A stretch of 64,000 nt of DNA from positions 186,591 to 250,590 of the forward strand of contig KE159560.1 of the NCBI GenBank assembly GCA_000403215.2, in the 5' to 3' direction. This DNA comes from Lachnospiraceae bacterium A4. GTDB taxonomy: Bacteria > Bacillota > Clostridia > Lachnospirales > Lachnospiraceae. Numbering within the stretch: position 1 is the stretch's first letter; each line of letters begins with the position of its first letter. Below the pieces are notes generated by a model, which worked only from the letters and a program-made list of their open reading frames with translations, was not told the origin of the DNA and ran no database searches. The position numbers and the translations under genes were made by a program. Below, piece by piece: positions 3,910 to 38,533 of the stretch.

Positions 3910-4980
3910 TTAATCTCCGGTTGATTCTCTGTAAATCAGACTGGTTTCTGTGTAAATCCTGCGGAAGTTCAGCGAAGGTTCCTTGATTCGCGACATAAGC
4001 AGGTGCACTGCGGAGAATCCCATAATCTGGCTGTGGATATGGATTGTGGTCAGTGTGGGCGAGGTCACATGCGATTCGGGGGAATCGTCAAAACCGCACA
4101 GGTAGACATCCTGCGGCACACGGATTCCCAACTGTTTGAACACAGACATGACGTCCACGGCAATAAAGTCGTTTGCGCAGATGAACACGTCTGGCAGTTC
4201 TTTTCGTTTCTGAATCTCCTCCATTATATATTCGCGGTATAGATTATATCCGGGCACCTTTACGCCTGTTTTGTTTTTGGTGATGCAGTATTCCTCAGGA
4301 CAGGAGAGCCCGGACAGATACATGGCATTCCGGTACCCCAGAAAGCGCTCATGAAAAGACTGGCAGTGCGAGATGTCGCCGATAAATCCGATTCGTTTCT
4401 TACCCCTGCGGATCATCTCGCGCACAAAACAGCCTATGTCTGTCTGGTTATCCATGTAGAGGCAGTCCGATTTAATCGGGTTATCAAGATCCGCTACCGG
4501 TGAATCAACAAATAGTGTAGGAATGTCGAGCCCGCAGAGCATATGGCAATAGTCCTTGTGAAACATTTCAATGCAGATGATTCCTGCAGTCCGTTCTTCA
4601 TTGTAAGAGCCGGGAAGGGACAGGCTTTCGATCTCATGTTCCTGAAGCCTGTGCATGGTGAAACTGTAACCCATGCTGGAAAGTTCCCGCTGAAATTTGT
4701 CCAGCATCGTGGAGGCAAAGTGGGAGCTTCCTATAAAATTGGACGTAAACAGCGAAATCTCCCGTTTGTTTGTCGCGGGAGTAAGGTCGGTTTCGGGCTT
4801 GCCGGAACCATAGATATTTATATAGGAGAATTGTTTATATCCCATTTCGATCGCCTTTTTCAAAACGCGTTCCCTGGTGGCGTCGGCGAGTAGCCCTGTA
4901 TTGTTGATTGCTTTGGATACAGTGTTGCGCGAGACGCCCAGTTCATCCGCGATGTCCTGAATGGTGACACGGTCAGCCAT
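3910..4980 (-). CDS. LacI-family transcriptional regulator, copy 1
   Basis: 356 residues. The N-terminal LacI HTH (TIQDIADELGVSRNTVSKAI plus hinge) is followed by a periplasmic-binding-protein-like sensor domain. ATG 4980 is preferred over the in-frame TTG at 5001 because it gives the same length and leader (AAAGGATGTGA) as copy 2 at 10436-11506. The two are paralogues with most residues identical. Copy 1 stands alone with no transport or hydrolase gene beside it, so it may act on the fructoside locus 7 kb away. It has a perfect consensus promoter upstream. Confidence 0.92.
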   Translation of the reverse strand: MADRVTIQDIADELGVSRNTVSKAINNTGLLADATRERVLKKAIEMGYKQFSYINIYGSGKPETDLTPATNKREISLFTSNFIGSSHFASTMLDKFQRELSSMGYSFTMHRLQEHEIESLSLPGSYNEERTAGIICIEMFHKDYCHMLCGLDIPTLFVDSPVADLDNPIKSDCLYMDNQTDIGCFVREMIRRGKKRIGFIGDISHCQSFHERFLGYRNAMYLSGLSCPEEYCITKNKTGVKVPGYNLYREYIMEEIQKRKELPDVFICANDFIAVDVMSVFKQLGIRVPQDVYLCGFDDSPESHVTSPTLTTIHIHSQIMGFSAVHLLMSRIKEPSLNFRRIYTETSLIYRESTGD

Positions 4981-5082
4981 GGAAGTCACATCCTTTCTCA
5001 ATATAGTGTATTTTGATATTTTCCCCAGATGGTTTTTCTCTCATATCTGCATGATATGCGAGAATTTTTTGAGTTTTATATC

Positions 5083-10435: not shown

Positions 10436-11506
10436 TTAATCTTCGGTAGACTCCCTGTAAATCAGGCTGGTCTCCGTATAAATCCTGCGAAAGTTCAGGG
10501 TGGGCTCCTTGATTCTTGACATGAGCAGGTGCACCGCGGAAAGCCCCATGATCTGGCTGTGGATATGAATCGTAGTCAGCGTGGGCGAAGTGACTCTTGA
10601 TTCCGGGGAATCATCAAAACCGCACAGCCAGACATCCTCGGGGACACGGATACCTAACTCCTTAAATACCTGCATGGTATCCAGTGCGACAAAGTCGTTT
10701 GCGCAGATAAACACGTCTGGCAGTTCCCGCCGTTTTTGGATTTCTTCCTTTATGTATTCACGGTATGGTTCATACCCTGGGATTCTGGTGTTTCTCCTGT
10801 TTTCGGTGATGCAGTAGTCACTGGGGCAGGAGAGCCCGGAGAGATACATGGCATTCCGATAGCCCAGGAAACGCTCATAGAAGGACTGGCAGTGCGAAAT
10901 ATCGCCGATAAACCCGATGCGCTTCTTGCCCCTGCGGATCATCTCATGTACAAAGCAGCCGATGTCCGTCTGGTTATCCATATAGAGGCAGTCTGACTTT
11001 AACGGCCTGTCGAAGTCTGCCACCGGCGAATCCACAAAGAGCGTGGGAACGTCAAGTCCGCAGAGCATGTGACAGTAGTCTTTGTTGAACATTTCGACAC
11101 AGATGATTCCGGCAGTCCTTTTTTCATTATAAAAACTGGGAAGGGACAGGCTTTCGATTTCGTGTTCCCGGAGCCGGTGCATGGTGAAGCTGTGTCCCAT
11201 TCCGGAGAGTTCCCGCTGGAATTTGTCCAACATGGTGGAGGCAAAATGGGAACTTCCAATGGAATTGGATGTAAACAGGGAAATTTCCCTTTTGTCCGTC
11301 TCGGACGGGAGACTGGTTCCGGTTCTGCCGGAGCCATAGATATTGTCATAGGAAATCTGTTTATAGCCCATCTCGATCGCCTTTTTCAAAACGCGTTCCC
11401 TTGTGGCGTCGGCAAGAATTCCTGTATTGTTGATTGCTTTGGATACCGTATTGCGGGAAACGCCCAGTTCATCCGCAATATCCTGAATCGTAACGCGGTC
11501 TGCCAT
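10436..11506 (-). CDS. LacI-family transcriptional regulator, copy 2
   Basis: 356 residues. HTH TIQDIADELGVSRNTVSKAI, hinge, then a sugar-sensing domain ending TEDSL-like (...SLIYRESTED). It is strongly similar to copy 1 along the whole length. It is divergent from the ABC importer/GH32 operon that starts at 11968 and is followed by the YesL genes on its own strand, so it is the likely local regulator of beta-fructoside uptake. The promoter is a consensus TTGACA-17-TATAAT on the minus strand. Confidence 0.93.
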   Translation of the reverse strand: MADRVTIQDIADELGVSRNTVSKAINNTGILADATRERVLKKAIEMGYKQISYDNIYGSGRTGTSLPSETDKREISLFTSNSIGSSHFASTMLDKFQRELSGMGHSFTMHRLREHEIESLSLPSFYNEKRTAGIICVEMFNKDYCHMLCGLDVPTLFVDSPVADFDRPLKSDCLYMDNQTDIGCFVHEMIRRGKKRIGFIGDISHCQSFYERFLGYRNAMYLSGLSCPSDYCITENRRNTRIPGYEPYREYIKEEIQKRRELPDVFICANDFVALDTMQVFKELGIRVPEDVWLCGFDDSPESRVTSPTLTTIHIHSQIMGLSAVHLLMSRIKEPTLNFRRIYTETSLIYRESTED

Positions 11507-17221: not shown

Positions 17222-17314
17222 ATGGAGAATGGGACTATGGAAAAACAGTTTGACGTGGTGGCGCTGCGTGTGATGCCATCGGAGGAGGAAGTGGAGGCGT
17301 TGATGAGTCTATGA
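17222..17314 (+). CDS. possible 30-residue small ORF coupled to the next gene
   Basis: An ATG at 17222 with GGAGGG at 17210-17215 opens a 30-codon frame (N-terminus MENGTMEKQFDVVALRV). It ends TGA at 17312-17314, overlapping the ATG of the surface lipoprotein gene at 17311 (ATGA). The overlap suggests translational coupling, so it may be a leader peptide. It may equally be the remnant of a larger gene. No homologue is recognised. Confidence 0.4.
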   Translation: MENGTMEKQFDVVALRVMPSEEEVEALMSL

Positions 17315-18804
17315 AAAGAATACGGAAAAGATTATATAGTATTCTATGCCTGTCTATGAGTTTTCTGCTCTGCAGCTGCGGGCAGTCCGGTGTGAAGGAT
17401 AAAGACTTTTCCGAACTGACAACACCGGGGAGTCAGGAGGAGGCGTATGAGTACCGCACATTTTTTCTGCCTGCCAAGGATGGGCCGATTCAGCCGTATG
17501 TCGGGGATACAATGCCGTATTACGAGGACGGGGTGTATTATATTTACTATCTGAAAGAAGGCGGCGACTCCTATAACCATTCCATATATCTTACGACTAC
17601 AAAGGATTTTGTGACCTACACGGAACAGGACGAGGTCGTGCTCGAAGCTTCCGACACCGGGCAGGATGCCTGGATCGGTACGGGGTCTGTCGTGAAGGCA
17701 GGAGGAAAGTATTATTTCTTTTATACCGGTCATGCAGACTCGGCAGACGTGGAATACAAAGAAAAGATAATGGTTGCCGAGGGCGATGATCTGACAGCGT
17801 TTCATAAGATTTCGGGATGGGAGATCACGCCGCCTGACGAACTGGGGCAAAAAAACGATTTCAGGGACCCGCAGGCCTATTATGATTCGGATACAGACAC
17901 GATATCCCTGACAATAACAGCGTCGAAGGACAATGTGGCAAGGATTTTGAAGTATACGGTCAGCGCGGACCTGCAGGAAACACAGTATGACGGCATTATT
18001 TTCACCAACACCGCAGGGGATTTCTGGAACCTGGAGTGCAGTGATACATTCAAAATAGGTGATAAGTGGTATCTGACGTACTCCGCGCAGGATGATACGC
18101 TCTGGTACGCTTCCGCCGATGAACAGTTTGGACCTTATTCCGAGGCAAAGCGCCTGGATGGAAAGCTGTTTTACGCGGCAAAGCATGTGGAGGATGGCGA
18201 AAACGTGTATATGGCGGGCTGGGCAAGAAGGTCAGAATCTCCTGCCTCCACACGGAGTGTTTCGGCATGGGCGGGGAATCTGGTCGTACAAAAGATCATC
18301 CAGAAAGAAAACGGGGACCTGGCGCTGGCTCCGGCAGACACGGTTATGCAGCAGTTTCAGAACAAGCGCAAGCTGCTGTCTGGCGACACGCAGATGTCTG
18401 TCGAGGCGGGGGATGCGTATCAGTACGCCGATGTGTGCACCTGTTATGAAAGGTTCCTGCTCAAAGGAAACTTTACATATTCGGGAAGCGGCTCCTTTGG
18501 GCTCTGCTTTGACTACAATGGCGAGGCTGACAAATACAAGCTGATCTCAATCTGTCCGGATGACAACATCCTTCAGCTCTCATTTAATGAAGGAATCACG
18601 CCGATTGCGGAGACAGAGATTCACCTTGAGCCAGGAAAAGACTATTCTTTTACGTACATACAGGAGGGGTCTGTGGGCGTGTTTTATATTGACGGCATGG
18701 CGGTATTGACAGTCAGGCTGTACGGCGTGAGCGGAAAGCCGGTTAAGCTGTTTGCCAGGAACAACAGCGTGACGTTTTCCGCATTGGAGCAGTATTCAAA
18801 TTGA
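17311..18804 (+). CDS. surface-anchored GH32-like fructan-active lipoprotein
   Basis: 497 residues. Signal peptide with lipobox LLCSC (Cys23 lipidated). The body is a divergent GH32/GH68-clan five-bladed propeller. The triad can be placed at D66 (YVGDTMPYY), D186 (NDFRDPQAYY) and E242 (NLECSDTF), although the usual NDPNG context is lost. The C-terminal ~120 residues form a beta-sandwich (YERFLLKGNFTYSGSGSFGL). It probably trims or binds fructans at the cell surface before ABC uptake. The 3' end is duplicated downstream at 20685-21068. Hydrolase activity versus pure binding is unproven. Confidence 0.82.
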   Translation: MKRIRKRLYSILCLSMSFLLCSCGQSGVKDKDFSELTTPGSQEEAYEYRTFFLPAKDGPIQPYVGDTMPYYEDGVYYIYYLKEGGDSYNHSIYLTTTKDFVTYTEQDEVVLEASDTGQDAWIGTGSVVKAGGKYYFFYTGHADSADVEYKEKIMVAEGDDLTAFHKISGWEITPPDELGQKNDFRDPQAYYDSDTDTISLTITASKDNVARILKYTVSADLQETQYDGIIFTNTAGDFWNLECSDTFKIGDKWYLTYSAQDDTLWYASADEQFGPYSEAKRLDGKLFYAAKHVEDGENVYMAGWARRSESPASTRSVSAWAGNLVVQKIIQKENGDLALAPADTVMQQFQNKRKLLSGDTQMSVEAGDAYQYADVCTCYERFLLKGNFTYSGSGSFGLCFDYNGEADKYKLISICPDDNILQLSFNEGITPIAETEIHLEPGKDYSFTYIQEGSVGVFYIDGMAVLTVRLYGVSGKPVKLFARNNSVTFSALEQYSN

Positions 18805-18871
18805 TTTGAAGAACCCGTTTTGAATAGTCCACCATCCGGTTAGAAATTGGGTGGTGTACTATAATTATTTA
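18421..18871 (+). repeat. direct repeat, left copy (~450 bp)
   Basis: The last ~385 bp of the lipoprotein gene plus its terminator (CACCATCC...GGGTGGTG hairpin near 18829-18857) is repeated at 20685-21135. The offset is a constant 2264 bp with no indels and only scattered substitutions. Homology starts abruptly at the CAGTACGCC/CAATACGCC codons and ends at ATTTA. Confidence 0.9.
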
Positions 18872-18895
18872 TTGTGCATGGGAAAGGGGAAAGAA

Positions 18896-20569
18896 ATGAA
18901 CATTATTAAAAAAGAAAAGAAATGGATTGCTGTTTATTTGACTTTTTCTTTGCTTCTGACCGCTATTCGGTTGATAAATCCCCTTCTGGTATCAAGATTT
19001 TTTGATAATGCGGGCGGTTCGGATATTGAATACTTGTTAAAAATCGTCCTGATACTATTGTCTGCATCTATATGCGGGGGCTTTTTAAACATTTTTTGTG
19101 CGATTTTAGATACAAAAGTCAGAAACAGGATCGTCCGGAAGGCAAAGAAAGAGTATTTGGAAAAGCTGCTGCGTCTTAATTATGAAACGCTTGAGAAAAT
19201 GGATTTTGGTGATAGGAAAACCAGATACGATTTCAATGAGGTTTATGGAGAATTAGCGGTTTCTTTTATTTCCAATACAATCATTGAACTGTTCACCTGC
19301 GCGTTTATTTTCGTTTATTTGCTGACAATAAACAGGATCATGACGGCAGTCTTTGTAGTTTGTCTTCTGATAAATTCCGTTCTTGAATTTCATATCGGTA
19401 AAATCAGTTACAAATTTTCGAAAGAGGTCACAGAGATCGTATCCGAGGGCGAATCGAAGGTCTGTAATGCCTTGAAAAACATAGCTTATATCAAAACGAA
19501 TCATTGTGCAGATATTATTGTGAATAATATAGACGCCCATCAACTGCGCCTGTCACGAAGGCAGGAGCAGCACACAAAGGAAGTTGTTTCCATTGATAAT
19601 CTAAATTCACAGATTTACAAATTGATTGAAGTGATCATATTTGCGGCCGCTGCCTTTATGTTAAAAAATAATACCATTTCGGTGGGGCAGATCTATTTAT
19701 TCATTAATTATATGGGCTGGATAGACAACGCATTCTCAACGATTTGGGATAATCATATAAAATATAAGGCATCAAAGGCAAAAATTGACATGATAGAATC
19801 AACTTTTGAAAACATAGGTGATATCAATAGTGAATCTCCGTGTGTGGTTCCTAAAGACAGAGTATCTTCACTTACGGTAAGCGATGTAGGTTTTCAATAT
19901 CATCCGGGAGAATTTGAAATCTGCAGTCTGAATATGAATCTGGAAAAAGGTGATTTTGTTGCCATTGTCGGCGGGTCTGGCTGCGGAAAATCAACACTGA
20001 TGAAGCTTATAAGCGGACTGTACCGCCCAAAAACCGGTAAAATTTTATACAACGGTGAAGATATCACAACCCTTTCTCCAGAAAGCCGATCCTATATGAT
20101 GGCATATGTTTCGCAAAACATTGCAATAATGGATGGCAGATTATACGATATTGTCGATTTTTTAAACACAGGCGTATCAAAGGAAGCCATTTGTCATGTG
20201 CTAAGACTTGCCGGTTTATCGCAGTTTGTCAGTGGCCTGGAAGACGGTCTGGACACTTATATTTCAGAAAGCGGTATCAATTTGTCAGGCGGCCAGCTGC
20301 AGCGCCTGGCTGTTGCACAGGCAATGATTTACAGCAAGGAAGTGTACCTGTTTGATGAAATTACTTCCGGTTTAGATGACCTGACACAGAAACAGTTGAT
20401 AGAGAATCTCAAAAGCATATCAGATGATAAAATAATGATTTTTGTCACACACAGGCTTAATGCTTTGGGTCAATTTAATAAAGTGTTTAGAATTGAAAAT
20501 GGTACGATGAGTCAAATCAGGTTAGCCCCAGAACTTTTCACAAAATGTGAAGGAACAGGATGTTCATGA
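18896..20569 (+). CDS. ABC exporter, fused membrane and ATPase domains
   Basis: 557 residues from ATG 18896, which has GGAAAGGGG upstream; the longer GTG frame begins inside the terminator of the previous gene. Six-helix exporter membrane domain (residues ~10-290), then an ATPase with Walker A GGSGCGKST, signature LSGGQLQRLA, Walker B YLFDEITSGLD and H-loop THR. The type is the peptide/lipid/drug half-transporter that works as a homo- or heterodimer. No substrate gene is adjacent. It is enclosed by direct repeats, and its AT-richer sequence differs from the GC-richer fructoside genes, suggesting later insertion. Confidence 0.9.
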   Translation: MNIIKKEKKWIAVYLTFSLLLTAIRLINPLLVSRFFDNAGGSDIEYLLKIVLILLSASICGGFLNIFCAILDTKVRNRIVRKAKKEYLEKLLRLNYETLEKMDFGDRKTRYDFNEVYGELAVSFISNTIIELFTCAFIFVYLLTINRIMTAVFVVCLLINSVLEFHIGKISYKFSKEVTEIVSEGESKVCNALKNIAYIKTNHCADIIVNNIDAHQLRLSRRQEQHTKEVVSIDNLNSQIYKLIEVIIFAAAAFMLKNNTISVGQIYLFINYMGWIDNAFSTIWDNHIKYKASKAKIDMIESTFENIGDINSESPCVVPKDRVSSLTVSDVGFQYHPGEFEICSLNMNLEKGDFVAIVGGSGCGKSTLMKLISGLYRPKTGKILYNGEDITTLSPESRSYMMAYVSQNIAIMDGRLYDIVDFLNTGVSKEAICHVLRLAGLSQFVSGLEDGLDTYISESGINLSGGQLQRLAVAQAMIYSKEVYLFDEITSGLDDLTQKQLIENLKSISDDKIMIFVTHRLNALGQFNKVFRIENGTMSQIRLAPELFTKCEGTGCS

Positions 20570-20684: not shown

Positions 20685-21068
20685 CAATACGCCGATGTGT
20701 GCACCTGTTATGAAAGGTTCCTGCTCAAAGGAAACTTTACATATTCGGGAAGCGGCTCCTTTGGGCTCTGCTTTGACTACAATGGCGAGGCTGACAAATA
20801 CAAACTGATCTCAATCTGTCCAGATGACAACATCCTTCAGCTCTCATTTAATGAAGGAACCACGCCGATTGCGGAGACAGAGATTCACCTTGAGCCAGGA
20901 AAAGACTATTCTTTTACGTACATACAGGAGGGGTCTGTGGGCGTGTTTTATATTGACGGCATGGCGGTATTGACAGTCTGGCTGTACGGCGTGAGCGGAA
21001 AGCCGGTTAGGCTGTTTGCCAGGAACAACAGCGTGACGTTTTCCGCATTGGAGCAGTATTCAAATTGA
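20685..21068 (+). pseudogene. duplicated 3' fragment of the surface lipoprotein gene
   Basis: Encodes the last ~123 residues of the 17311-18804 protein with four or so substitutions (for example I to T in EGTTPIAETE and R to W in TVWLYGVSG), ending at the same ..EQYSN stop. There is no start codon with a ribosome site and no catalytic residues, so it is a gene fragment. Retained reading frame and few changes mean the duplication is recent. Confidence 0.88.
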
Positions 21069-33747: not shown

Positions 33748-33975
33748 ACTGTGTACCCCTTTCTTTTGTTTATCGTAATGCACTTCATACATCTAATACT
33801 ATGTTAGTATAAAATTGTCAGATAATCAATAGAATTTTTATATTTTTTCAAACAATATGTTTTTAGATTGACATTCGGGCAGATTAACTATAAACTGGAA
33901 AAACAGGCGGAAGGCAATATTTAAAAGACTTTCGGACATACTAATGGAATGATTAATATAGGACGGAGAATTGAA

Positions 33976-35772
33976 ATGCAGGAACAGGAAAAACTGATTT
34001 TTCATCCTATTTCACTGGATGACAGAGATTGGATGAATGAAAAGCTGAGAGAAGAGAAGCTGGAGGCTTGCGAATATACGTTTGCTAATAATTTTATGTG
34101 GGCAGAAGTGTATGATGTTCGGGTTGCAAACGCCTATGGCTGCGGCGTGATTCGTTGTATGGGACAGAGGCATGTACAGTATTCATTTCCGTTTGGCAAT
34201 GGAGACCAGAGGGCAGTCATCGTGCATCTGAAAAAAATATGTGTGGTCTACGGACGTCCGCTGATTTTATATCCCATCACAGAGAGCAGCAGGCTCAAGC
34301 TAATGGAATGGTTTCCGGGAGAATTTGAGATTTACTCAGACCGGGCGGATGCAGATTATGTGTACACGACAGAAAAACTTTCCTCGCTCAAAGGAAAAAA
34401 ACTGCATGGCAAGAGAAATCACATCGCCCGCTTTATGGACGGAGACGACTGGCGCTATGAACCGATGACGCAGGAAAATATCCCAGAGTGCCGCAGAATG
34501 GCAAAAGAATGGGAGACGCTTCGGGCAGAGAAATGGAATGAGGAGATGGAGCAGGAGATTGGCGTGCTGGAGGTGGCATTTTCCAATTTCACGAAACTGG
34601 GGCTTACAGGCGGTGTCTTATATAAAGAAAATAAAATCGTAGCCTTCACCATTGGCGAGGCGTTGAATGAAGATACATTTGTGGTGCACTTTGAGAAGGC
34701 GTTTCCCGATTTGCAAGGCGCCTATCCAATGATTAACCAGCAGTTTGTGCTTCACGAGGCGCAGGATTTCCAATATGTCAACCGCGAGGAGGACACAGGA
34801 GACTTGGGACTCAGAAAGGCAAAGCTGTCCTATTATCCAGATCTTTTGTTAAAAAAATACTGGGCGCAGGAGAGCCGTGTCGTGTTTGCAAACGAGCGCA
34901 AGCCGCAGGAAATCATCAATCTGTGGCAGCAATGCTTTCACGACGACACAGCATATATACAGATGTACCTTGACAATCGGTTTGAGACGGAAAATATGCT
35001 CGTGATTTATGAGGACGGCTGTCTGGTATCAATGGCAAGCCTGCTGCCGGTACAAGTCACAATTAACGGAACCAAAGAAAATGCGCGCTATGTCTACGCA
35101 GTGGCAACGCTTCCAGCGTATCGGAAAAAAGGCTATGCGTCAGATCTTTTGCGTCATGCGCTTGAGAAATACGGTGAACCGTTAATTTTACAGCCGGCGG
35201 ACAGAGAGTTGCAGGAATATTATGAGAAGCATGGTTTTGTGGATGCCTTCGGTGAAAGTCCCTGCTGGATTTATGCCGGAAAATGTACAGGGCCCCCCGT
35301 TATTCCGTCAGGCAGTGAGAACAATTTGAGAGCCGCAGAGGCAGAGGAGGAAACTTCTCAAATCGAAGAGCTTGGCGGCTGGTCTGTCACCGATGCCGAT
35401 GCAAAAGCATACAAAGCGCTTCGCGATGAAGCCTTTGAAAAAGAAGGCTATGTGGAATGGGATGAGCAGGCTGTCGCGTATGCGATCAAAGAAAACCAGT
35501 TCTGCGAGGGAAGAACGCTGCTGCTGGCCAGAACTGTACATGATATCGGGGTGCAGCGCGCTGTACTGATGTACCGCATAGAAGGCGACAGCCTTCACGT
35601 CATTGAGACCACGCTTCATGACAATGAACTGCATGAAGTGCTGCCAGAGCTGCTTCTTCATACAAATACAGCGTGGGCATTCGAGCGCAATATGGGCGGC
35701 ATGATCATGCTGCCGGAACATTTTGCAGCGTGGGATTATAAGGAAGGATATCTGAGCCTGACATTAGGATAA
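33976..35772 (+). CDS. DUF2156 (phosphatidylglycerol lysyltransferase-like) + GNAT fusion
   Basis: 598 residues from ATG 33976 (GGACGGAG upstream). Residues ~5-290 are a DUF2156 domain (PISLDDRDWMNEKLR, FANNFMWAEVYDVRVAN, KLHGKRNHIARFMDG), the double-GNAT fold of aminoacyl-lipid synthases. Residues ~300-430 are a GNAT with the acetyl-CoA loop VATLPAYRKKGYASDLLRHA and EYYEKHGFVDA. A further ~160-residue GNAT-like C-terminal region follows. There are no membrane helices, so it is not an MprF flippase. The substrate is unknown. Confidence 0.85.
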   Translation: MQEQEKLIFHPISLDDRDWMNEKLREEKLEACEYTFANNFMWAEVYDVRVANAYGCGVIRCMGQRHVQYSFPFGNGDQRAVIVHLKKICVVYGRPLILYPITESSRLKLMEWFPGEFEIYSDRADADYVYTTEKLSSLKGKKLHGKRNHIARFMDGDDWRYEPMTQENIPECRRMAKEWETLRAEKWNEEMEQEIGVLEVAFSNFTKLGLTGGVLYKENKIVAFTIGEALNEDTFVVHFEKAFPDLQGAYPMINQQFVLHEAQDFQYVNREEDTGDLGLRKAKLSYYPDLLLKKYWAQESRVVFANERKPQEIINLWQQCFHDDTAYIQMYLDNRFETENMLVIYEDGCLVSMASLLPVQVTINGTKENARYVYAVATLPAYRKKGYASDLLRHALEKYGEPLILQPADRELQEYYEKHGFVDAFGESPCWIYAGKCTGPPVIPSGSENNLRAAEAEEETSQIEELGGWSVTDADAKAYKALRDEAFEKEGYVEWDEQAVAYAIKENQFCEGRTLLLARTVHDIGVQRAVLMYRIEGDSLHVIETTLHDNELHEVLPELLLHTNTAWAFERNMGGMIMLPEHFAAWDYKEGYLSLTLG

Positions 35773-35879
35773 TTATTGCATATTAAAATTTATCAATAAA
35801 AATGATTAATTTTAACTATTCCAAAATAGAGAAATGTATGGTATCATAGTCCTATCAGTTTTGATAATAAATCAAAAGG

Positions 35880-36160
35880 CAATGAAAAGAACCAGTAGCC
35901 GCAACGAGCATTTCAGAGAGCTGCCGCAGGGTGCGAGGCAGCATGGGAAGTGCGGTGAACTCATCTTGGAGCTGTGCGCCTGAACAGACAAGTCATTCAG
36001 TAGGGCGCAACGGATTACCTGCCGTTATCCGGGGAAGGCATTATCGTGCTGAAGGAGTGCATATTTTTGTATAAAAATATGAAGTAGAGTGGTACCGCGA
36101 AAGAATATGGAGAAGTCTTTCGTCTCTGCAATAATATGTTGTGGAGCGAAAGATTTTTTT
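35880..36160 (+). promoter_or_regulatory. T-box leader, probable leucine specifier (CTC)
   Basis: The conserved T-box core AGAGTGGTACCGCG is at 36086-36099. About 130 nt upstream the Stem I specifier loop holds GAACTC at 35957-35962, with CTC (Leu) as the specifier. The terminator is TCTTTCGTCTC (36116-36126) with GAGCGAAAGA (36144-36153) and seven T. Uncharged tRNA-Leu would favour the antiterminator and allow expression of the DUF5713-like gene and leuA. The leucine-synthase gene downstream supports the specifier call. Confidence 0.9.
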
Positions 36161-36189
36161 GTTGGCAGGGATGATGTATGGAGGTTGAT

Positions 36190-36516
36190 ATGAAGCGCTT
36201 TGATGAAACATATCGGTTTTTAACGGGGATGTATCACGACGGTTATTTTCCAGATTTTCTAGTAGATAAGATTAGAGCAGAGTTGGAGAACATGGTTGCT
36301 TTTTTAGAAACTGGCGTATCGGATCTTGGACAGATTCAGGAGAAATTTGACAGGATGACGATGGCAATCAACGATTTACAGGAGGAATTTGAAGAGAACG
36401 GCAGTGAGATCGAGACAGTGGCAAGAGACAGCATTGCGACAGATGTAGATAAGATTCTAAAATGGTTTGATGTTAATCTGAATGTGGACGATGCTATCGG
36501 GGAACGGGATTGGTAA
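36190..36516 (+). CDS. DUF5713-like protein under T-box control
   Basis: 108 residues. ATG 36190 is chosen because GGAGG lies five bases upstream; an in-frame ATG at 36178 is possible. The pattern RFLTGMYHDGYFPDFLVDKI, ending NDLQEEFEENGSEIETVARD, is typical of DUF5713. The function is unknown. It is placed between a leucine T-box and leuA with 25 bp to leuA, so it should be made when leucine-tRNA is uncharged. Confidence 0.72.
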   Translation: MKRFDETYRFLTGMYHDGYFPDFLVDKIRAELENMVAFLETGVSDLGQIQEKFDRMTMAINDLQEEFEENGSEIETVARDSIATDVDKILKWFDVNLNVDDAIGERDW

Positions 36517-36541: not shown

Positions 36542-38533
36542 ATGGAACATGCAGGCAAGTACGAAAAATCATATTTTTTACCGCCAGTCTGTACATATGA
36601 CTGGGTGAAGAAGGATGCGGTTACTGAGCCGCCAATCTGGTGTTCGGTTGATTTGAGAGACGGGAATCAGGCACTCATAGAGCCTATGAGTCTGGAAGAA
36701 AAATTAAATTTCTTTGAGATGCTTGTGGACATTGGCTTTAAGGAAATTGAGGTTGGATTTCCAGCGGCGTCAGAGACAGAGTATGAATTTATGCGCGCTT
36801 TAATAGAAAGGAACATGATACCAGAGGACGTGACAGTTCAGGTGCTCACGCAGGCAAGAGAGCACATTATCAAAAAGACGTTTGAGGCAGTCAAAGGCGC
36901 GCCTCATGCAGTCATTCATCTGTATAACTCCACCTCGGTAGCGCAGCGTGAACAGGTGTTTAAAAAGAGTAAAGAGGAGATCAAGAAGATTGCGACAGAC
37001 GGCGCGGAGCTGTTAAAAAAGCTTGCAGCAGAGACAGACGGAAACTTTTCGTTTGAGTACAGCCCGGAGAGCTTCCACGGCACAGAGGTGGACTATGCCG
37101 TTGAGGTCTGCAATGCCGTGCTGGACATCTGGCAGCCGACTGCGGACAACAAGGCAATCATCAATATCCCGACAACTGTTGAGAATGCGATGCCGCATGT
37201 GTTCGCCACGCAGGTAGAGTATATTCATAAAAATCTCAAATACAGAGATGCCGTTGTGTTATCCGTCCATCCGCACAATGACCGCGGCTGTGGTGTGTGC
37301 GACGCGGAGTTCAGCATTCTTGCCGGTGCGGACCGCGTGGAGGGAACACTTTTTGGCAATGGCGAGCGGACTGGAAATGTAGACCTGATCACCGTGGCGA
37401 TGAACATGTTCTCGCACGGTGTGGACCCCAAGCTTGACTTTTCGAATATGCCGGAAATCAGAGAGAATTACGAGCTTTTCACGCGCATGAAAGTGCACGA
37501 GAGACAGCCATATTCCGGCGACCTTGTATTTACAGCGTTCTCAGGCTCGCATCAGGATGCCATCGCAAAAGGAATGCAGTGGCGTGAGGAGAAACAGACA
37601 GACAAGTGGACAGTACCTTACCTGCCAGTTGACCCAAAGGATGTCGGCAGAAATTACGACGCAGATGTAATCCGCATCAACAGCCAGTCTGGAAAGGGAG
37701 GCGTAAACTATATTTTAAAACAAAATTACGGCATTTCACTTCCCTACGCGATGCGCGAGGAGGTCGGCTATCTGGTGAAAGATGTCTCAGATCAGGAGCA
37801 TAAAGTGCTCTCACCACAGTGGGTTTACGATATTTTCTGTGAAAATTATGTGGATAACATGCCGTTGTTCCAAATCAGCGACTGCCATTTTAAGCAAGTG
37901 GACGGCATCATGGCGGAGGCAGTGATTGTCTGCGGCGACAAGAAAACAACCGTCGATGCCAATGGAAACGGGCGTCTTGACGCAGTGAGCAACACGATTA
38001 AACAATATTTTGGCGTGAGCTACCAGTTGTCTGACTATGAGGAACACGCCCTCACAAAAGGCTCGTCCTCCAAGGCGATCGCCTATGTGAGCGTCACCTG
38101 CAACGGCGAGAAATTCTGGGGCGTCGGCATGGATGATGATATCATCAAGGCGTCTATACACGCACTCTGTGTCAGCGTCAACAAACTGCCGCAGATCCAG
38201 ACCAGTGAAGCCTGCCAAGATGAGCGCATGATGGAGATTTTTAATTATATTCAGGCAAATTATCAGGCGACGGCGCTCAGTGATGTCGCAGAGCATTTTC
38301 ATCTGTCAGAGCCGTATTTAAGCAAATATATTCATGAAAAGTCAGGAAAGACTTTTGGCGATATTCTGATTAACATTCGTTTGAAAAAAGCAAAGACCTT
38401 GCTTCGAAATGGCAATATGACCGTCGAGAATGTGGCAATGGCAGTCGGATATCCAAATGTCGAGCATTTTAACCGCATCTTTAAGAAAAAAATGGGCATG
38501 ACGCCAGTGCAGTACAGAAAAGGCGGTCAATAA
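36542..38533 (+). CDS. leuA: 2-isopropylmalate synthase fused to an AraC-type DNA-binding domain
   Basis: 663 residues in one uninterrupted frame, with GGAGG upstream. Residues ~25-300 are the LeuA TIM barrel ([17 protein letters not shown]; metal ligands in [23 protein letters not shown]). Residues ~420-550 are the LeuA C-terminal allosteric domain ([16 protein letters not shown]). Residues 560-663 are a complete AraC/XylS double [23 protein letters not shown], then [20 protein letters not shown] and MTPVQYRKG. LeuA normally ends near residue 550. The enzyme condenses acetyl-CoA with 2-ketoisovalerate. The fused domain suggests it also binds DNA, perhaps in a leucine-dependent way; that is inference. 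Confidence 0.92.

Follow-up and report, generated by a model that had tools for sequence, protein, structure and literature searches.

The leuA-araC locus

The window, a stretch of 64,000 nucleotides corresponding to contig C34, 186591-250590, of a 6.96-Mb genome in 40 contigs (G000), carries on its plus strand a leuA gene, encoding the enzyme that opens leucine synthesis, that continues in frame into the DNA-binding domain (DBD) of an AraC-type regulator. Below, G numbers stand for genomes and L numbers for loci. The features of the locus, in order, are as follows.

35792-35820, plus strand: putative operator of the LeuA-AraC protein, ATCAATAAAAATGATTAATTTTAACTATT (core 35792-35815), from conservation upstream of leuA
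35839-35847, plus strand: extended -10 element TGG-TATCAT, with the -10 hexamer 50 bp after the operator start and no good -35, from sequence, spacing and comparison with unfused promoters
35873-36130, plus strand: T-box leader with a CUC (Leu) specifier, as judged from the alignment; Rfam RF00230, 137.9 bits (gathering cut-off 93)
36178-36516, plus strand: DUF5713 gene between T-box and leuA; Pfam PF18977, E 2.6e-39
36542-38533, plus strand: leuA-araC fusion gene, from the open reading frame list, Pfam and NCBIfam
36635-37465, plus strand: LeuA catalytic barrel (HMGL-like, residues 32-308, E 1.4e-71), from Pfam and a whole-model fold match to M. tuberculosis LeuA 3hps/1sr9/3fig
37520-37720, plus strand: IPMS_D2 domain (residues 327-393), from Pfam
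37823-38188, plus strand: LeuA_dimer allosteric domain (residues 428-549, E 1.2e-23), from Pfam
38189-38221, plus strand: junction linker (residues 550-560), without an A-tract in this genome, at the position of the A8-A10 tract of a sister lineage
38222-38521, plus strand: AraC-type DBD with both helix-turn-helix units (residues 561-660), from Pfam, alignment and a model with pLDDT 76-90 over 561-660

The fusion gene is a single frame of 663 amino acids with an ATG start. Its catalytic barrel, IPMS_D2 and LeuA_dimer domains are present at nearly full length, and the best NCBIfam model is PRK03739, 2-isopropylmalate synthase (residues 15-548, 800 bits). The LeuA part resembles M. tuberculosis LeuA both by sequence and by predicted fold, the fusion model and PDB entries 1sr9, 3fig and 3hps sharing 43-44% identity over about 565 columns. 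R39, D40, H243, H245, H337 and Y372 are invariant among the 33 fused proteins aligned and also align with M. tuberculosis LeuA; the RD of RDGNQ, the histidines of HPHND and the histidine of SGSHQDA have active-site roles in LeuA. The fusion is the only full LeuA match in its genome, in which many other AraC-type proteins are encoded.

Over the DBD, Pfam places HTH_18 at residues 583-660 (E 9.5e-21) and HTH_AraC at 621-660, with PF12833 and PF00165 both above cut-off. The earlier note had named loss of the helix-turn-helix contact residues as a weakness to look for; the residues are in fact kept, with 21 of 105 columns invariant in 31 diverse leuA-linked copies (31 of 36 picks, after exclusion of L002, a solo AraC, of L069 and L116, and of the degenerate DBDs of L083 and L090). 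As read from its sequence, the DBD of the fusion is complete and intact. Fold prediction of the whole protein gives good domains but, at a pTM of 0.54, is no guide to the placement of the DBD on LeuA. The 50 matches listed from a PDB fold search comprise LeuA and related folds, with no AraC structure among them; AraC structures were matched by sequence search instead.

Elsewhere in the window, two closely alike regulator genes (LacI-type by eye) lie on the minus strand at 3910-5001 and 10436-11506. The last ~123 codons of a gene at 17311-18804 (hydrolase-like by eye) are nearly repeated at 20697-21068, beyond an ABC-transporter-like gene at 18851-20569, as if that gene had come with a duplication of its flank, again as judged by eye.

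Distribution of the fusion

The fusion recurs in 30 of 35 other genomes of the same genus, in 29 as one match and in G006 split across two contigs. This recurrence excludes the frameshift or assembly error at the junction that the earlier note had considered, and its reading of the gene as a genuine fusion stands: a complete LeuA with its allosteric domain and a complete AraC DBD share one continuous, widely conserved frame. Its statement that LeuA normally stops near residue 550 also agrees with the unfused relatives, which match to about residue 549 and then soon end. The fusion is missing from G001, G027, G029, G030 and G032, where G001, G029 and G030 have only an unfused LeuA of 50% identity and G027 and G032 have no LeuA match. 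Five genomes (G008, G011, G014, G021 and G023) have an unfused LeuA, at about 50% identity to the query, in addition to the fusion.

Searched with a profile of 31 leuA-linked DBDs, 50 of 392 genomes of the order, the window's own included, have a clearly leuA-type DBD (E <= 2.3e-46), always in a single frame of 662-778 amino acids; the next match below the threshold is that of G370, at 138 bits. In the family of G426, whose genome draw overlaps that of the order, 91 of 397 genomes have a DBD match (E <= 1e-36); the DBD is in frame in 88 and out of frame in the other three, G426, G428 and G523. At the level of the class, 13 of 391 genomes match, again including the window's own, and three of these belong to other families (f35 twice, f94 once). 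Named records with fused copies, among the best 80 of the 153 confirmed, include Butyrivibrio, Eisenbergiella, Konateibacter, C. beijerinckii and C. chromiireducens. Gut bacteria are numerous among the carriers. Many of the genomes surveyed are metagenome-assembled.

A putative operator upstream of leuA

Alignment of the leuA-upstream sequences of two distant lineages gave one common block in otherwise unrelated sequence. The 29-bp operator consensus is ATCAAtaAAAaTGATTAAaTTTAatcaTt, which starts about 50 bp before the -10 of leuA; eight of the 29 do not vary between the seed sites, which is due in part to the choice of seeds. Upstream regions of 900 nt were scanned with a leave-out 29-bp matrix seeded with 62 sites fitting the first consensus, at a threshold of 12 bits; shuffled sequences reach at most 9.6 bits with this matrix. 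After removal of loci with less than 300 nt upstream or with identical upstream ends, 101 of 182 loci were kept, comprising 79 with a DBD, 21 called without one (including L092, which is fused in frame with a DBD too degenerate for detection) and L187. An operator on the plus strand scoring at least 12 bits is found at 73 of the 79 DBD loci (63/69 in frame and 10/10 out of frame) and at 0 of the 21.

Scores close to the threshold (12.0-12.4) are seen at L186, L089 and L116. The six misses are L021, L027, L029, L081, L083 and L090. The first three (in G024, G009 and G019) have a perfect operator 1.3-1.5 kb upstream, beyond the 900 nt scanned, and L083 and L090 have degenerate helix-turn-helix regions; L081, like L257, has a DBD without a scoring operator. 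L257 is also the one miss in a held-out set of 18 further fused loci, hand-picked from the G426-family and class matches, in which the other 17 have an operator of at least 16 bits with the -10 at 49-50 bp in 17/17 and with an operator sequence absent from the training sites in every case. Of 20 loci taken for this set, L244 and L251 were left out as copies of L097 and L060, which were already in use.

Within the genus, 29 of 31 fusion genomes (the window's included) have leuA and an operator 5' of it on one contig, three of them at a distance of 1.3-1.5 kb. The exceptions are G005, with its operator on another contig (1 mismatch), and G023, with only a diverged copy at leuA. No operator is found in the fusion-less G001, G029, G030 and G032; the incomplete G027, which has no LeuA match, has one with 0 mismatches. 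That the operator before leuA tracks the DBD across lineages makes direct regulation of DNA by the enzyme, as the earlier note had suggested, likely.

The same note had expected branched-chain amino-acid promoters to be the targets, and this is probably not so. The pattern with up to two mismatches occurs once in the 6.96-Mb genome, at 35792-35815 upstream of the leucine T-box of leuA itself; within the window it fits with 0 mismatches, the chance expectation being 0.08 at up to three. A branched-chain regulon was thus rejected as the operator target, and the upstream pattern suggests that the fused DBD probably acts on leuA alone. Among 60 relatives, each site lying clearly off leuA in a fusion genome differs from the pattern at two positions, as does every site outside the genus, and a reversed-pattern control gives a similarly small number of sites (8 over all genomes). 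Covariation between helix-turn-helix residues and the right half of the operator was also considered: every TCACT-type site (14 of 14) is paired with a helix that begins F[Y/F]LSKPY, a suggestive pattern that is confounded by descent and not clean. The 29-bp operator was not found at L187 (G370), where leuA and araC are separate genes, so the separate AraC regulator there may read another site.

The T-box leader

As the DUF5713 gene lies between them, leuA is the second gene after the T-box. Operator and leuA are 721 nt apart here; in the genus, the other leaders of T-box length mostly have about 360-460 nt between the two, with 769 nt in L025. The DUF5713 gene therefore looks like an insertion into the leader. 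Directly 5' of this leader, 33949-35772 encodes a protein with LPG_synthase_C and GNAT acetyltransferase domains (Pfam). The window's genome has 11 T-box matches, seven of them above cut-off.

The earlier note had two layers of leucine control meeting at this gene. The T-box is confirmed here, but it is not a constant partner of the fusion. It reaches the Rfam gathering score in eight of 26 loci scanned (L189, L055, L038, L187, L082, L111, L077 and L091), which include the unfused L082 and L111 as well as L187, where it stands above the separate leuA and cupin-AraC genes. The eight loci of the A-tract lineage that were scanned (L172-L176, L178, L183 and L185) give no T-box at gathering score, and in them just 60-130 nt or so separate the operator from leuA; several further fused loci that were scanned likewise give none. 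These counts are Rfam-based, and a loose pattern shows T-box-like leaders in loci outside the Rfam scan, which may thus have one. At gathering score, then, a constant partnership is unsupported. At L081, a c-di-GMP-I riboswitch match lies at 4740-4813 on the opposite strand, just 5' of leuA-araC.

Promoter layout and a model of activation

The distance from the start of the operator to the -10 hexamer is 50 bp at 57 of 73 loci, 49 bp at eight and 51 bp at one, with the -10 elsewhere or not found at seven; when the choice of -10 is restricted to 49-51 bp, 50, 49 and 51 bp account for 65, 9 and 2 of 76 sites. An extended -10 (TG) is present at 69 of the 76. With the -10 counted as -12 to -7, the operator spans about -62 to -34, and it adjoins or overlaps the -35 position at a fixed distance from the -10 (49-50 bp in 65/73), which is the layout of a class II activator. 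In class II activation by AraC/XylS regulators the operator lies next to the -35.

The fused promoters match the -35 consensus at four or fewer of six positions in 75 of 76 cases. Four matches are reached in 25 of 76, against about 12% expected by chance; the -35 is thus somewhat better than random, and the dependence on an activator may be less than full. A direct comparison was made at 18 of 22 hand-picked loci, those with a locatable T-box start. The unfused leuA promoters (n=9) have TTGACA at 6/6 in L082, L102, L109, L110 and L111, 5/6 in L105, 4/6 in L093 and L117, and 3/6 in L094, whereas the fused ones have 3-4/6 in 7/7 loci measured (the best-scoring promoter of L023 and L088 differing from the one at the operator); the degenerate-DBD loci L090 and L083 have 5/6 and 3/6. 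L082, where the loss of the DBD is nested in the fused group, has TTGACA-N17-TATAAT. This weak -35 in the presence of the DBD, as against a normal one after its loss, is taken as evidence for activation by the fused DBD; L094 and L083, in which the DBD is lost or degenerate, show no such replacement of the -35.

In the model suggested by this layout, the C-terminal AraC domain of LeuA would bind the 29-bp operator, which stands in for the -35, and the bound protein would activate transcription of its own gene. In LeuA enzymes generally, the allosteric domain binds leucine. Here it would serve as the sensor in the position that a cupin has in ordinary AraC regulators, such that the leucine or substrate state of the enzyme may set the strength of leuA activation, and in this genome the leucine T-box downstream would add a second check at the level of RNA.

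The position of the operator, which abuts the would-be -35, would equally suit a repressor, with leucine-bound LeuA-AraC blocking RNA polymerase, and for a biosynthetic gene nothing would be simpler than repression by the end product. Repression does not require a weak -35, however, and no good -35 exists in 7/7 fused promoters compared with 5-6/6 matches to TTGACA in 6/9 unfused ones, with the nested loss at L082 having a perfect TTGACA-N17-TATAAT; we regard repression as improbable. It is less probable again, and indeed very unlikely, that the operator belongs to a separate regulator, with a structural role or some other site of action for the AraC domain of LeuA. Binding by LeuA-AraC is a prediction and the genome offers many other AraC-type proteins, and some other regulator that disappears along with the DBD could be what reads the operator. 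Yet the operator has gone wherever the DBD was lost or degenerated in several nested lineages, it stands at leuA in 29/31 fusion genomes of the genus and in 0/4 without the fusion, and the DBD is under strong constraint. Activation of leuA by its own product thus remains the preferred reading.

A sister lineage with an A-tract at the junction

In the genus of G426 a DBD is present in 16 of 20 genomes. G430 and G444 have ordinary in-frame fusions, and the other 14 species have an uninterrupted run of A between LeuA and the DBD. The run is A9 in 11 of these (DBD in -1), A8 in G440 and G443 (DBD in +1) and A10 in G441 (in frame), leaving the DBD out of frame in 13. The length varies between close relatives: in the 900 nt leading up to the tract, G440 has 96-97% identity with both G443 and G439, yet the tract is A9 in G439 and A8 in G440 and G443. 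In 10 of 11 A9 loci the LeuA frame ends at a TGA directly after the tract codons. The A-tract clade is nested in in-frame fusions (SH-aLRT 100), and on a different branch G523 has an A8 with the DBD in -1. The operator is found in 11 of the 14 A-tract genomes (in G438 on a different contig from the DBD); in G436, G439 and G443 the available sequence ends before or inside the operator position.

The run is unbroken by substitution in 14/14 despite a mean pairwise synonymous difference of 0.57 in LeuA and 0.63 in the DBD. By comparison, six Lys columns invariant in all 14 genomes use AAA in only 21% of cells and none of the six is all AAA; one codon is kept throughout in 27 of 196 amino-acid-invariant columns. 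Runs of at least eight A at the junction occur in 29 of 30 out-of-frame rows, 2 of 130 in-frame rows (both from G441) and 1 of 21 DBD-less rows (after the stop), in counts that include duplicate fetches. The DBD has a median dN/dS of 0.063 (LeuA, 0.077), a low value that indicates purifying selection even though the DBD is out of frame in 13/14. From these features we infer that slippage on the A-run probably makes both products, so that a cell of this lineage would hold a mixture of plain LeuA and LeuA-AraC.

A different route to the second product would be -1 ribosomal frameshifting at A AAA AAA. In 11/14 species the A9 supplies the A_AAA_AAA heptamer in perfect form and the DBD follows in -1; the same holds for the A8 of G523. 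Shine-Dalgarno-like bits (GAGG, GGAG) stand just upstream of the tract in G426 and G427, if not in all genomes. Against this, the A8 of G440 and G443 places the DBD in +1, beyond the reach of -1 frameshifting, and a stimulatory RNA structure was sought and rejected, as none conserved was found downstream of the tract (alignment z +0.25 to +1.04; single sequences -1.83 to +1.28). Moreover, nine is a known slippage-prone length, being, in the portion of Baranov et al. available (PMC1088944), the length of A/T run where many bacteria show selection against slippage. Frameshifting is hence a minority possibility, although it is a better candidate than re-initiation, which we consider doubtful. In the latter case a free, MarA-like DBD of 99-101 amino acids would be made from an ATG after the LeuA stop, and the six loci listed do have such a frame, starting 14 nt past the stop in five of them and 8 nt past it in L172. 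Slippage accounts for all three junction frames and re-initiation for less: it leaves unexplained the uninterrupted run in 14/14 species (compared with AAA in 21% of conserved Lys cells), the conserved residues between tract and ATG (pN 0.154 and pS 0.469 over 7 codons) and the A10 of G441, where the same junction is in frame. Sequencing errors or gene decay are scarcely credible as the source of the variants. Homopolymers are error-prone, the genomes are drafts and G432 (L175/L151), one of the 14, has an in-frame stop early in its LeuA part, but the same A9 is shared by 11 species of one clade, the median DBD dN/dS is about 0.06 and the operator is present in 10/10 out-of-frame loci scanned, eight of them from the A-tract lineage.

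A possible self-regulating enzyme and its relation to known systems

Taken as a whole, it is likely from the comparative sequence evidence that LeuA-AraC is a self-regulating enzyme, whose AraC domain would activate leuA through the operator with the allosteric domain as sensor, and with slippage in one sister lineage. Somewhat better than an even prospect is given to the broader formulation, in which the enzyme of the committed step would be a ligand-sensing activator of its own gene and A8-A10 slippage would set the DBD-bearing fraction, making it tunable and possibly phase-variable.

BirA, NadR and PutA are trigger enzymes with a fused DNA-binding domain, and they are alike in joining a metabolic enzyme and a DNA-binding regulator of its own pathway in one chain. 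Unlike them, the present protein is a LeuA with a C-terminal AraC domain, and its single predicted target is its own promoter. With the cupin-sensor AraC/XylS regulators it shares the two-HTH DBD and an operator beside the -35 as in class II activation, but it has a biosynthetic enzyme with its allosteric domain in the position of their sensor. M. tuberculosis LeuA has the same enzyme fold and domain order as the LeuA part, without the DBD. A leucine T-box on leuA is the same RNA element in the same pathway, differing here in that it lies downstream of an operator bound, by prediction, by the gene's own product. The product of Shigella mxiE is an AraC member, and its slippery run is T9.

MocR regulators (a GntR DBD with an aminotransferase-like domain) similarly use an enzyme-like fold as the sensor of a transcription factor, according to the accessible part of PMC5320631; in contrast, the enzyme here appears to be the working copy of the cell, the window's genome having no other full LeuA match. 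In Shigella mxiE and Thermus dnaX, transcriptional slippage at a slippery run yields two products from one gene, and for mxiE a longer regulator (PMC1088944 and PMC5009743, in the portions available). The A-tract differs from both in deciding whether an enzyme carries a DBD, by a slippage that is deduced from sequence. No earlier description of a LeuA-AraC fusion was found in the literature searched, which did not extend to subscription papers. The available text of PMC5882156, in which 106 companion domains are counted for AraC/XylS, does not contain 'LeuA', and 'isopropylmalate' is absent from that available for PMC1088944 and PMC5009743.

If the reading is correct, the locus would be a minimal closed circuit in which the protein that makes a product also senses that product through allostery and controls transcription of its own gene, and each link gives a sharp prediction: one operator, one promoter and one ligand. 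The cultivated species C. beijerinckii and Butyrivibrio carry the fusion. The A-tract lineage would represent a natural experiment on why only some subunits would bind DNA, and plain-looking leuA genes may turn out to be regulators.

Origin and loss of the DNA-binding domain

The proposal of the earlier note that the LeuA allosteric domain has replaced the AraC sensor fits the arrangement of the protein, in which that domain occupies the usual position of the cupin, and it is strengthened by G370 (L187). There, a gap of 4 nt separates leuA from a full-length AraC gene downstream, of 349 amino acids and with a match to AraC_binding (cupin; PF02311, E 7e-5), and the DBD of this gene is the closest in score to the fused DBDs. 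In the DBD tree the fused DBDs sit beside those of G370 and other AraC proteins of roughly 350 amino acids (with weak support and few columns).

In the LeuA tree, the unfused LeuA of Bacillus, Paenibacillus and Blautia type lie outside and the fused LeuA form a nested group, within which L082 with L093, and L094, are without a DBD; the tree has 85 rows, was made by a quick method and was rooted on three outgroup rows that do not form one side, with G370 as a long branch. Together, the two trees and the G370 gene pair suggest that the fusion probably happened a single time: a leuA gene would have been joined to a cupin-AraC gene behind it, the cupin sensor going in the process, and several losses would have come later. 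The DBD-less loci L082, L093 and L094 and the degenerate-DBD loci L083, L090 and L092, all nested inside the fused group, are all without the operator.

At L069 (G428) a +1 break without an A-tract is seen in a single genome, and this may be an error or decay. L083, L090 and L092 are in-frame fusions with a degenerating helix-turn-helix region and an operator that does not score, and may be intermediates of loss.
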